In this document: positions 5,228-15,919 of the stretch, one piece after another
Position numbering within the stretch: the stretch's first letter is position 1
Layout: every line of letters starts with the position of its first letter
IMG/VR virus record: IMGVR_UViG_3300036945_000787
Span: 1 to 25,093 of that record
From: a virus
Strand: one strand, 5' to 3'
DNA length: 25,093 bases
Notes under the pieces: model-generated
What the model was told of the DNA's origin: nothing
Databases searched by the model: none
Seen by the model: only the letters and a program-made list of their open reading frames with translations
Translations under genes and position numbers: made by a program

Positions 5228-5415
5228 TCTCTAACTTCTTTAAAACCGTTCGTGAGGCACTCTCACGTCCTCCTTATGCAAGCCCTTGCAAAGGCAACTG
5301 CGTTCAAGGCCGAGAGTGTACTTGTGCACCAGACTATGAAACATACATCAACCATCAGCGTGATGATGAATTCAACAACGCCAATTGGCCATTTCCTGTG
5401 GGTAAAAAGCCATGA
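5218..5415 (+). CDS. Small cysteine-containing protein, 65 aa
   Basis: It starts MGLISNFFKTVREALSRPPY and carries four closely spaced cysteines (CKGNCVQGRECTC, about residues 24-36). This could bind a metal or form disulfides. The N-terminal 15 residues could be an amphipathic helix. It overlaps both neighbours (10 bases before, ATGA after). The family is not recognised. Confidence 0.6.
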   Translation: MGLISNFFKTVREALSRPPYASPCKGNCVQGRECTCAPDYETYINHQRDDEFNNANWPFPVGKKP

Positions 5416-5609
5416 AAGAATACCTTACTCGCCAAGACGCAGAAGCTATCTTAAGTGTAATGAATCAATTACCAGACCATGATGCCTTTGTGCTAGAAAT
5501 TGATAACTTATCAGGGATTGGCACAAATATTAGTCTAACCACTGATATTATTCACAGTGGCCTAGCAGGTAAATTTACAGTTGAAATTAACAGCATTGAC
5601 CGTTGGTAA
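5412..5609 (+). CDS. Small phage protein, 65 aa, unknown
   Basis: The start overlaps the previous stop by ATGA. The sequence starts MKEYLTRQDAEAILSVMNQL and then has alternating beta-type stretches. It is the last gene of this coupled run: a hairpin and an intrinsic terminator follow. Confidence 0.6.
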   Translation: MKEYLTRQDAEAILSVMNQLPDHDAFVLEIDNLSGIGTNISLTTDIIHSGLAGKFTVEINSIDRW

Positions 5610-8644: not shown

Positions 8645-8829
8645 TAAATTGATAAAGTTCAAGACTAGACACTTTGAGTGGTTGTCCAAAACAGCTCAAT
8701 TACAGTGTTCTGGGAGGAGCTCGCGACTTACGGGGATCCAGCAAAACACTGTAGATTGGGCAAGTTTAGGGTCAAACGCAGTCAAGGTAGGCTGGTCTTC
8801 AAGCCATTGAGAAACTACGACTTAAAAAT
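8645..8829 (+). other. Long structured 5' leader (about 185 nt)
   Basis: No reading frame occupies this stretch. It folds into at least two hairpins: one closed by TTGAG/CTCAA around 8675-8702, and one with a 9-bp stem TACAGTGTT (8701-8709) / AACACTGTA (8745-8753) stacked on CTGG (8710-8713) / CCAG (8738-8741), enclosing a GC-rich 24-nt loop. A GTTTAGGGTCA motif follows at 8764-8774. No Shine-Dalgarno sequence precedes the ATG at 8830. It may be a cis-regulatory RNA. I do not recognise a known riboswitch class. Confidence 0.5.
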
Positions 8830-9619: not shown

Positions 9620-9937
9620 ATGAAATACACAAAAGAAATCACTGACCGTATTATAGCCGAGTACAAGGCTAAGGTGCCAGTTAAGGACATTGCTATCAAC
9701 ATTGATGTACCTGAAAGATCAGTTATAGCAAAATTAAGCTCACTTGGAGTTTATGAGAAAAAAACTTATACAAACAAGCGAGGTGAGCTACCAGTGAAAA
9801 AATCCGAGCATATTGAGCGCATTGCAGAATTGCTGGAAGTTAATTCAGAGGTCCTAGAGAGCCTAGAAAAGGTCAACAAAGGGGTACTCAAGTTAATTGA
9901 ACTTAAACTCACTGAAGTTGACCCTAAATTGGATTAA
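9620..9937 (+). CDS. HTH DNA-binding protein, paralog 1 of 4
   Basis: The 105-residue protein has an HTH core RSVIAKLSSLGVYEKKTYTN (about residues 37-56), preceded by a helix carrying D-R-I-I-x-E-Y and followed by a helical tail with ESLEKVNKGVLKLIE. The same order and spacing recur in the proteins encoded at 11049, 12050 and 15596. This copy is the most diverged and the only one on the plus strand. The fold looks like a sigma region 4 or homeodomain-like HTH. The target is unknown. It is co-transcribed with the 262-aa gene, and a strong terminator follows. Confidence 0.7.
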   Translation: MKYTKEITDRIIAEYKAKVPVKDIAINIDVPERSVIAKLSSLGVYEKKTYTNKRGELPVKKSEHIERIAELLEVNSEVLESLEKVNKGVLKLIELKLTEVDPKLD

Positions 9938-10067: not shown

Positions 10068-10114
10068 GGCGCAGTCAGGTGTGAAATTTTTAATGTGGCT
10101 TATTTTGAACAAAA

Positions 10115-10148
10115 CAAAAGCCCCAAGAGCGAGTCATTGGGGCTTTTG
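10115..10148. terminator. Bidirectional terminator between the short plus-strand unit and the large RNA
   Basis: A perfect 12-bp stem, CAAAAGCCCCAA (10115-10126) with TTGGGGCTTTTG (10137-10148), and a 10-nt loop. U-tracts are available in both directions, better on the minus strand. Confidence 0.8.
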
Positions 10149-10638
10149 AACTTTTGCCGGCAGTTTTTATCCAACTCAGACTTATGCTACCACAGCTGCT
10201 GACCCTAAACTTTTGCAATCGTACCAGTAGTGGTTAGCTCTGAGTATTGTGTTCAAGGGGAAATGCACGTTTCAGTCCTGTACAGGATATCCGTGACTAA
10301 CAGTACTGGTTCGGCTCTTCAGCCCTGGATGCACTCAAGCTGCACTCCCTCGTCTTGGCACCTGCATGAAGCCTGCGCCGCTTTTAACGACTTAGGGTCG
10401 ACGTCTGTTTTAGAGTGTTTCACGACAGTTAGCATCACTGGTTTCGCTAGTAAGACTCCATGCTTACATTTCCGAGTTCACACCACGGATCTTTGGGTTA
10501 GATGATAGCTGTATTTTATGCTCTTCTTTGAGTTGGGTTCCAGTTTATTATGTCGGCTCATAGCGGAGCCCAGCCTGGGTATAGGCACGGCAGCCTTGCA
10601 CTACTCATTACGCGTCAGCCGTAGCTCAGCGGTTTTCG

Positions 10639-10731
10639 TCCAGACCCTCAGGTGTTGCAGTTGGAAGTTAATCGAACAACTGCACTGCGCTCCCGAGGGT
10701 TTCGCACAACTTTCATGTGCTCGTCAGTGGA
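10639..10731 (-). ncRNA. Hammerhead ribozyme, type I topology
   Basis: Read on the minus strand: stem I 5' arm TCCA (10731-10728); core CTGACGA (10727-10721); stem II GCACA/TGTGC (10720-10716 and 10708-10704) with a 7-nt loop; core GAAA (10703-10700); stem III CCCTC/GAGGG (10699-10695 and 10649-10645), extended by an inner TGCAGTTG/CAACTGCA hairpin; then T10644 pairing with the last A of GAAA; C10643 as the cleavage-site nucleotide in a canonical GUC; and stem I 3' arm TGGA (10642-10639). An outer CAGCC/GGCTG pair (10743-10739 and 10620-10616) extends stem I. All invariant core positions are satisfied. Cleavage is predicted between 10643 and 10642. Confidence 0.85.
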
Positions 10732-10819
10732 ATAGGGTGGCTGTGTGTAGAGATTTCGCACACAATTAAGATGTTATACAGACATATAGGCTGCACTCAT
10801 ATCACCAATTTATATAATA

Positions 10820-10848
10820 ATTATACACTAAAAGCGTACGACAATCAA
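10820..10848 (-). promoter_or_regulatory. Promoter of the large non-coding RNA
   Basis: On the minus strand, -35 TTGATT (10843-10848), 17-bp spacer, -10 TATAAT (10820-10825). The expected start is near 10812. The -35 directly follows the U-tract of the upstream small RNA. Confidence 0.75.
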
Positions 10849-10850
10849 GT

Positions 10851-10986
10851 AAATAAAAACAGTCGTTGCAACTAGACTACCTTACGTTTGTGACTAATAA
10901 TTTTTGTCAAAGGTTGAGTAAGTGTTCTTGTGCAGACGGGCAGTTGAAGATTTCAACTATTCATTAAGCCCTTCCCGACTGTTTAT
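10851..10986 (-). ncRNA. Candidate small structured RNA of about 135 nt
   Basis: It starts at a consensus promoter (10993-11021) and lies upstream of the large RNA gene. The two ends pair: AAACAGTCG (10984-10976) with CGACTGTTT (10865-10857), 9 bp, followed by a U-rich tract. An inner hairpin AGTTGAA/TTCAACT with a 3-nt loop is enclosed by GGGC/GCCC. No reading frame is evident. The closed shape resembles small regulatory RNAs such as 6S in outline only. The class is unknown. Confidence 0.55.
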
Positions 10987-10992
10987 ATAACT

Positions 10993-11048: not shown

Positions 11049-11357
11049 TCAACCACGCAGGTGTTGCAAGAGTGTTTCCAACACTTCGTGGTTGGCTTTT
11101 TCCAAGCTGTCAAAGACTTCAGGAGCCACACCCACGTGCATGGAGATTGCGTCCACAAGGTCAGCTTTTTTGGTACGTGCCACAGTGGCCTTGGTTTTGG
11201 CTTGGTACACGCCTTCACGAGAAAGTTTTGCCACTACACTGCGAGTGGTTTTGCCCAGCTGGGTAGCCAAGGTTTCCACAGTTGCACCAGCTTTGTAGCC
11301 AGAGACGAGAGCTGCGGTTTGTTCGGGGGTGTAGTTTGATTTGGTAGCTTCAGTCAT
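11049..11357 (-). CDS. HTH DNA-binding protein, paralog 2 of 4
   Basis: Two adjacent ATG codons exist. The second (11357) is preferred because AAAGGA lies six bases before it and because it aligns with the MTAKT starts of paralogs 3 and 4. The protein is 102 residues: NYTPEQTAALVSGYKAGATV leads into the HTH segment with TRSVVAKLSREGVYQAK, then a basic linker and a helical tail with DSLEKANHEVLETL. The HTH core is nearly identical to that of paralogs 3 and 4, while the linker differs (it lacks the KTGE...KKDAHAD block). Probably a small transcriptional regulator. It has its own TTGACG-17-TATAAT promoter and a terminator. Confidence 0.75.
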   Translation of the reverse strand: MTEATKSNYTPEQTAALVSGYKAGATVETLATQLGKTTRSVVAKLSREGVYQAKTKATVARTKKADLVDAISMHVGVAPEVFDSLEKANHEVLETLLQHLRG

Positions 11358-11397
11358 CATATGTCCTTTGTTTGGTTTCTGCGCTGTTTAAAGAATA

Positions 11398-12049: not shown

Positions 12050-12376
12050 TTAGATTGGCTTGGAATTTGCCAATGCTTCAAAAATTGCTTTTAGTGCATT
12101 TTTGTTTGCTTTTGTCAACGATTCTACATCGTTTTCATTAAGTTTCAAAATTGCGCCGATTGCGTCAGCGTGTGCATCTTTTTTGATTACTGGCTCGCCA
12201 GTTTTGGAAACATAAGTTTTAGCTTTGTAAACTTTTTCGCGTGACAATTTTGCGACAACTGAACGAACAGTTTTGCCCAAAGTTTCAGCGATTGTTTCAA
12301 CTGTCACGCCTGCGACATAATCGGCCACCATTTTGGTGGTTTGCTCGGGAGTGTAGTTTACAGTTTTTGCAGTCAT
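12050..12376 (-). CDS. HTH DNA-binding protein, paralog 3 of 4
   Basis: The 108-residue protein starts MTAKTVNYTPEQTTKMVADY and has the HTH segment KTVRSVVAKLSREKVYKAKT (about residues 35-54), a KTGEPVIKKDAHAD linker, and a helical tail with ESLTKANKNALKAIFEAL. It is roughly 70 percent identical by eye to paralog 4, so the two duplicated most recently. The role is presumably sequence-specific DNA binding. The palindromes of the nearby promoters are candidate targets. Its promoter is consensus (TTGACA-16-TATAAT), and the ribosome-binding site AAAGGA lies eight bases from ATG. Terminator at 12009-12035. Confidence 0.75.
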   Translation of the reverse strand: MTAKTVNYTPEQTTKMVADYVAGVTVETIAETLGKTVRSVVAKLSREKVYKAKTYVSKTGEPVIKKDAHADAIGAILKLNENDVESLTKANKNALKAIFEALANSKPI

Positions 12377-15595: not shown

Positions 15596-15919
15596 TCAGG
15601 CTTTTTCAGCCTTGATAAAGTCTACAATCTTAGCGAGTGCAGTCTTGTTAGCCTTAGTCAACGAATCAGCATCAGCCTCAGACAAGCCCAAAGCCTCAGC
15701 AATAAAATCAGCGTGAGCATCTTTTTTCACAACAGCTTCACCAGTCTTAGTGGTGTAAGTCTTAGCCACATAAACTTTCTCGCGGGAAAGTTTAGCAACA
15801 ACAGAGCGAACAGATTTTCCCAAAGCCTCAGCAATGGATTCAACAGTAGTGCCAGCTTGATAGTCAGCAACCATGCGGGCAGTTTGTTCAGCGGTATAGT
15901 TTACAGTTTTAGCAGTCAT
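15596..15919 (-). CDS. HTH DNA-binding protein, paralog 4 of 4
   Basis: The 107-residue protein starts MTAKTVNYTAEQTARMVADY, has the HTH segment KSVRSVVAKLSREKVYVAKT, then KTGEAVVKKDAHAD and a tail with DSLTKANKTALAKIVDFI. It is the nearest relative of paralog 3 at the protein level. The DNA has drifted noticeably (fewer A/T at third positions). The promoter TTGCAT-17-TATACT lies inside the upstream 36-aa gene, and GGAG is three bases before ATG. The DNA target is not known. Confidence 0.75.
   Translation of the reverse strand: MTAKTVNYTAEQTARMVADYQAGTTVESIAEALGKSVRSVVAKLSREKVYVAKTYTTKTGEAVVKKDAHADFIAEALGLSEADADSLTKANKTALAKIVDFIKAEKA

Follow-up and report, generated by a model that had tools for sequence, protein, structure and literature searches.

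A predicted type I hammerhead ribozyme inside a non-coding RNA gene of an uncultured T5-like phage relative

Inspection of IMG/VR virus record IMGVR_UViG_3300036945_000787 (positions 1 to 25,093, a stretch of 25,093 nucleotides hereafter called the window) revealed a candidate type I hammerhead ribozyme on the minus strand. Comparative evidence strongly supports the prediction that this hammerhead is complete and that it resides inside a phage non-coding RNA gene. We consider it likely that it is a genuine ribozyme within an RNA gene that runs from promoter to terminator, and that the nascent RNA cleaves itself, parting a leader from a structured body. This reading builds on the sequence, its fold, covariation among relatives, and the conserved position and signals of the element. 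The large terminase encoded in the window shares ~50% identity with its counterparts in Vibrio phages (112-121 kb), among them VspSw_1, which is classified as Demerecviridae; judged by this similarity, the source of the window is an uncultured Demerecviridae (T5-like) relative.

The RNA gene is flanked on both sides by members of a small gene family (Table 1). Four paralogous genes encoding D5-like HTH proteins of ~105 aa occur within 6.3 kb of the window, namely the two listed in the table and two more at 12050-12376 and 15596-15919, both on the minus strand. The other three paralogues are 38-50% identical to the copy located directly upstream of the ribozyme RNA.

Read 5′ to 3′ from 10731 to 10639 on the minus strand, the element has the order UCCA-CUGACGA-GCACA-UGAAAGU-UGUGC-GAAA-CCCUCGGG-(39 nt)-CCUGAGGG-UC-UGGA, with helices of 4 bp (stem I), 5 bp (stem II) and 8 bp (stem III) in addition to the A15.1-U16.1 pair. 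All of the features named in an earlier, sequence-only reading of this DNA (the invariant core, a 5-bp stem II closed by G-C, the A-U pair, the GUC triplet, and stems I to III) were found on this strand. The predicted cut, after GUC and between 10643 and 10642, makes 10642 the nucleotide carrying the 5′-hydroxyl, which is the 5′ end proposed in that reading. An insertion of about 65 nt that folds on itself had also been assigned to stem III. The self-folding is borne out and the length is revised, as 55 nt separate GAAA from U16.1, with 39 of these located beyond the 8-bp stem. As in type I hammerheads, the nucleotides C3 U4 G5 A6 N7 G8 A9, G12 A13 A14 A15.1 and U16.1 are present in the window and in 42 relatives, and helices I, II and III surround the core with stem I open, this stem being short and weakly predicted in the full-length RNA.

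Table 1. Features of the ribozyme RNA gene and its surroundings (window coordinates unless a locus is given)
Feature	Position	Strand	Basis
Hammerhead ribozyme of type I, from one stem I strand to the other	10639..10731	minus	sequence, fold, alignment, covariance model
Stem I, UCCA/UGGA	10728-10731/10639-10642	minus	
Catalytic core strand CUGACGA (C3-A9; N7 = C)	10721..10727	minus	sequence, alignment
Stem II GCACA/UGUGC, loop UGAAAGU	10704..10720	minus	fold, covariation
Core strand GAAA (G12-A15.1)	10700..10703	minus	sequence, alignment
Stem III, 8 bp plus self-folding 39-nt apical insertion	10645..10699; strands 10692-10699/10645-10652	minus	
A15.1-U16.1 pair	10700/10644	minus	sequence
Cleavage region; U16.1 = 10644, C17 = 10643	10642..10644	minus	predicted
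Sigma70-type promoter of ribozyme RNA, TTGATT-17-TATAAT	10820..10848	minus	sequence; -10 region aligned, conserved in relatives
Leader hairpin UGUGUG/CACACA; tRNA-Glu at same place in some relatives	10742..10764	minus	fold, alignment
Structured body of ~530 nt, the predicted 3′ product of cleavage	10108..10642	minus	
Module conserved in the body, AAAUACAGCUAUC...; GCUA/UAGC closes its hairpins	10434..10566	minus	alignment, covariation, R2
GACCCUAA, predicted to pair with UUAGGGUC	10392..10399	minus	pairing probability 0.65-0.95
UUAGGGUC, partner of GACCCUAA	10201..10208	minus	fold prediction
Strong intrinsic terminator AAAAGCCCCAA...UUGGGGCUUUU, then U-rich	10111..10147	minus	sequence; same form in relatives
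D5-like HTH regulator gene, directly upstream of ribozyme RNA	11049..11360	minus	used to find relatives
HTH paralogue, convergent, downstream of RNA gene	9620..9937	plus	
Upstream element GACCCUAAACCG	L060		

The minimum free energy structure of an isolated 126-nt segment is exactly the hammerhead fold with an unpaired core (z = -2.3), and in this structure CAGC/GCUG pairing extends stem I outward. In a partition function for the full-length RNA, the pair probability of stem I is ~0.1, and it is 0.4-0.5 right after synthesis of the site, under a model that ignores tertiary contacts.

Comparative data were drawn from 79 loci, which are viral contigs carrying relatives of the HTH gene upstream of the ribozyme RNA. 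By blastn, the intergenic unit as a whole is partly conserved downstream of this gene, and a motif search of the relatives located hammerheads at the corresponding place, with the strand unchanged. Across 43 aligned, distinct hammerhead copies, the window included, CUGANGA, GAAA and U16.1 do not vary, N7 is the sole variable core position, and position 17 is always C or A and G in no sequence. The loop of stem II has a conserved UGCAAGU-like sequence. Base pairing is retained in 88.8% of the paired cells, compared to 78.7% for shuffled alignments, and double changes affect 11 of the 18 pairs in 78 cells (shuffled means, 6.6 and 25.9). The covariation score of 0.285 likewise compares with 0.123 for the shuffled alignments, and all controls in which the structure was slid along the alignment gave values of at most 0.122. 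Stem II is paired in 99% of cells with four of its five pairs compensated, and RNAalifold recovers the three-way junction unprompted. Two relatives (L029:6752-6905 and L047:6827-6965) have a long insertion in stem II of the hammerhead that carries another GACCCTAAAC element.

A covariance model built from this alignment, termed R1, scores the window at 93 bits (E 4e-22), with the window copy being part of the model. At E up to 1e-4, R1 matches the element in 63 of the 79 loci (18 + 45), always 3′ of the HTH gene and in the same orientation. This count includes the training rows and some near-duplicate contigs. In many of the misses, either the contig ends before the site or the HTH gene is more distant. 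A DNA-pattern scan that was blind to the HTH gene returned the same phages again, together with the new contigs L116, L124 and L162 at high scores. Each of these contigs carries genes for such HTH paralogues, and in two of them the RNA adjoins one. DNA similarity searches of sequenced phages gave nothing useful for the RNA gene, and the HTH protein encoded at 15596-15919 found no match there, so all known members of the RNA family come from metagenomic viral contigs. These findings of conservation, covariation and R1 matches uphold the earlier placement of the hammerhead within a phage non-coding RNA gene. A stricter pattern applied to bacterial genomes produced two matches only (L164 and L165), neither with an R1 match at E up to 1, and these were judged to be chance occurrences. 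A possible tandem duplication in contig 3300043436_004120 (L121/L152) was also set aside, as it may be an assembly effect; the contig ends share 127 identical bases.

No Rfam family reached its gathering score in the window, and no hammerhead appeared in an Rfam search of the window at E up to 10. The sequence-only reading had offered a miss of this kind as grounds for refutation. However, this test is not valid, because textbook phage hammerheads also score below the cut-offs. Those in one phage contig (L158) score 20-28 bits against Rfam cut-offs of 48-56, and among nine phage loci with textbook-type hammerheads a single hammerhead is found at gathering level. In addition, Hammerhead_HH9 aligns over the entire core, with a 43-nt insertion, to the relative of the window element in L060, at a score (17.2 bits) that is below the cut-off. 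We therefore rejected Rfam as arbiter and regard its miss in the window as uninformative. More broadly, Rfam thresholds overlook whole families of real-looking phage hammerheads.

The promoter recognized upstream by the sequence-only reading is retained, with its spacing of ~80 nt amended to ~85 nt between the predicted transcription start site and the hammerhead core. Cleavage would yield a 5′ product of ~170 nt that includes the ribozyme, and a 3′ product computed at about 531 nt, in agreement with the earlier figure of roughly 530 nt. In most loci, the window included, the place of the leader is occupied by a hairpin and there is no tRNA. In about nine loci (L020, L022, L027/28, L035/37, L051, L053, L057/58), a tRNA-Glu(UUC) precedes the core, with a gap of 5-9 nt between them. 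The body varies among relatives in both length and sequence, and because the bodies are mosaic, an attempt to derive one consensus structure for the entire body failed. A common module of ~130 nt could be aligned, and it shows independent covariation, with 13 of 21 pairs compensated across 20 aligned loci. A model of this module (R2) scores the window at 90 bits and matched further loci, including second copies that lack the hammerhead. Pairing between GACCCUAA and UUAGGGUC is predicted to close a body domain of ~190 nt. For the 701-nt RNA as a whole, folding gives no clear gain in stability over shuffled sequences (z = -0.87). In most of the loci L059-L067 the body is gone, and the terminator hairpin follows within a few bases 3′ of the hammerhead, leaving almost no 3′ product.

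Several related elements were observed near these RNAs. The body module recurs in second copies that are richer in A+T, occupy another stretch upstream of the HTH gene and have no hammerhead (L002:5231-5349, L017:5162-5299, L046:5165-5302), as is likewise the case in L006/L009/L010/L011 near 5230-5440. In L078, the body module is present and the hammerhead is not detectable; directly 5′ of the module (L078:10915-11019), a YrlA (Y RNA-like) match occupies the leader place at 33 bits (E 4e-5), short of the gathering score, and suggests a tRNA-like leader. In the window, the minus-strand region 10851-10988, situated downstream of the HTH gene and ahead of the ribozyme RNA, is a candidate for a second small-RNA gene with its own promoter (11021-10993). 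It has an ACAGUCG...CGACUGU closing stem followed by a U-run (z = -2.5 relative to shuffled sequences), parts of it are conserved in L021, L029 and L050, and an Rfam search with it gave no significant match.

From the features of the RNA gene we infer transcription, cleavage and their co-transcriptional timing. The three-way junction would fold in the nascent RNA during transcription, and the RNA would then cut itself after GUC. This reaction would release the 5′ leader (which holds the tRNA-Glu in relatives) with a 2′,3′-cyclic phosphate, and the structured body with a 5′-hydroxyl end. The most economical idea for the purpose of the cut, and the least certain part of the proposal, is that one transcript would thereby give rise to two RNAs with defined ends. 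The sequence-only reading had suggested 5′-end processing of the ~530-nt RNA, which is compatible with the window phage. It does not hold as a general role, because most of L059-L067 have almost no 3′ product, and the tRNA-Glu located just before the core in other loci implies that the 5′ product may be equally important. Processing of the 5′ end of the body fits the window, whereas trimming of an upstream RNA is a better fit for the relatives that bear a tRNA or lack a body.

A less likely possibility is that the ribozyme chiefly serves the upstream RNA, a tRNA-Glu or a leader resembling a tRNA, by trimming it on its 3′ side, with the body being a variable passenger or trailer. The adjacent tRNAs and the variable or missing bodies, in the extreme case with the terminator right after the ribozyme, are consistent with this arrangement, and trimming of phage tRNAs has been reported for theta ribozymes, which belong to another class (PMC10879173). 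However, most loci have no tRNA at this place, and a hammerhead would leave ~85 nt of its own on the tRNA, whereas a theta ribozyme cuts at its own 5′ border. Structural selection on the body module also argues against a passenger role. Another view would treat the element as a chance or decayed, inactive hammerhead-like sequence, as could be proposed from the Rfam miss and the weak thermodynamic prediction for stem I. We find this very improbable, since the element is conserved and covaries in dozens of phages, and since a motif search with loosened stem requirements that yields one match in the window yields none in 400 dinucleotide shuffles of the window (10.0 Mb, both strands).

A further alternative arises from a phage-wide repeat, TTTAGGGTC, that is ~23-fold enriched and coincides with the 3′ strand of stem III in relatives, where this strand and the cleavage triplet together form the repeat, with the cut falling between GTTTAGGGTC and AGG. 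It is improbable, though somewhat less so than chance or decay, that the element persists chiefly for a role as DNA, with the stem III strand being an operator-like copy of TTTAGGGTC bound by the HTH paralogues and self-cleavage being secondary or lost. The sequence TTAGGGTC occurs six times in the window (0.39 expected) and 495 times in 80 related sequences (21.6 expected), more densely outside genes, and GACCC or GGGTC repeat cores lie between the -35 and -10 elements of 30 promoter-like sites in the related sequences. Moreover, the repeat stays intact even where stem III of some relatives has a bulged A. A role at the DNA level could account for part of the conservation of the stem III 3′ strand, but it leaves unexplained the invariance of CUGANGA and GAAA and the covariation of stem II, all of which lie outside the repeat. 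In addition, the window copy has drifted from the repeat (CTGAGGGTCT), yet the hammerhead pairing is retained. A ribozyme that is switchable seems similarly improbable; complementary GACCCUAAA copies, or HTH proteins as putative repeat binders, would obstruct or free the hammerhead and thereby determine whether the RNA is cleaved. Such complementary copies are present in the same transcript, at 10-15 nt in length and ~55 nt upstream in L059-L067, and at 8-14 nt in length and roughly 160-600 nt downstream in most other loci. One complementary pair in the window is that of GACCCUAA with UUAGGGUC. The repeat TTTAGGGTCA has 11 near-consensus copies in the window (0.45 expected), at positions 8766, 9274, 9920, 10012, 10201, 10392, 11034 and others, is ~23-fold enriched over the related loci, and is a candidate binding site for the HTH paralogues.

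Self-cleavage of a nascent RNA into leader and body remains our preferred reading. What hammerheads do in bacteria and phages has long been asked, and here one is tied to a fixed place, a conserved gene for a structured RNA that is driven by a promoter and lies beside a regulator gene. Phages with a tRNA on the 5′ side and phages with no body form a natural series, which makes the question of which product matters directly testable.

Further hammerheads were also encountered in phages. Approximately 10 small hammerheads lie within 6.7 kb of phage operons in L158:5967-12707 (IMGVR_UViG_3300033153_007262), and nearly all such hammerheads are missed by Rfam at gathering level. Most of those in L158 sit where a gene has just ended, at its stop codon or shortly past it, and the ribosome-binding site of the next gene follows immediately, as if each gene were cut from the polycistronic mRNA. 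An array of approximately eight is present in L163, and further arrays are found in L095, L096/L122/L140, L128 and L153. In crAssphage cr131_1 (NC_055902.1), a hammerhead lies in an unannotated stretch near one end of this crAss-like genome (L167:293-380) and is matched by R1 at 47.7 bits.

Phage hammerheads, ribozymes of another class beside phage tRNAs, and large phage RNAs near tRNAs are all known already. The literature searched, which lay outside subscription papers and preprints, yielded no description of a large phage RNA to which a hammerhead is joined. The window element shares with type I hammerheads (Rfam clan CL00010; RAGATH-1 hammerhead RF03152) the core, the three stems, the open stem I and the UH cleavage rule. 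It differs in the 39-nt apical insertion of stem III, in having no Rfam model at threshold, in its location within a large structured RNA, and in the coincidence of a stem III strand with a phage repeat. The consulted portion of PMC3088659 reports hammerheads in PaP3, Bcep176, a Xanthomonas phage and a saltern phage, those of PaP3 and Bcep176 being in intergenic regions, and the window hammerhead lies in phage intergenic DNA as well. However, that portion mentions neither a conserved large RNA nor an adjacent tRNA, whereas the window hammerhead is part of an RNA gene conserved in a phage lineage. The theta (HDV-like) ribozymes of gut phages are found directly 3′ of phage tRNAs and are associated with suppressor tRNAs (PMC10879173). 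Some of the loci described here similarly place a ribozyme of self-cleaving type directly 3′ of a phage tRNA, although theta ribozymes are a different class that cuts at its own 5′ edge, and the tRNA here is tRNA-Glu(UUC) in a minority of loci. The window itself has a hammerhead rather than an HDV-like double pseudoknot, and no tRNA. Finally, the window RNA resembles GOLLD and ROOL in being a large structured phage non-coding RNA. These RNAs often occur near tRNAs, and GOLLD has one conserved half and another that is less so, according to the consulted part of PMC12286853. The Rfam covariance models for GOLLD and ROOL do not match the window RNA or its relatives. The same part of that source describes no self-cleaving ribozyme in either RNA, whereas the window RNA carries a predicted hammerhead.
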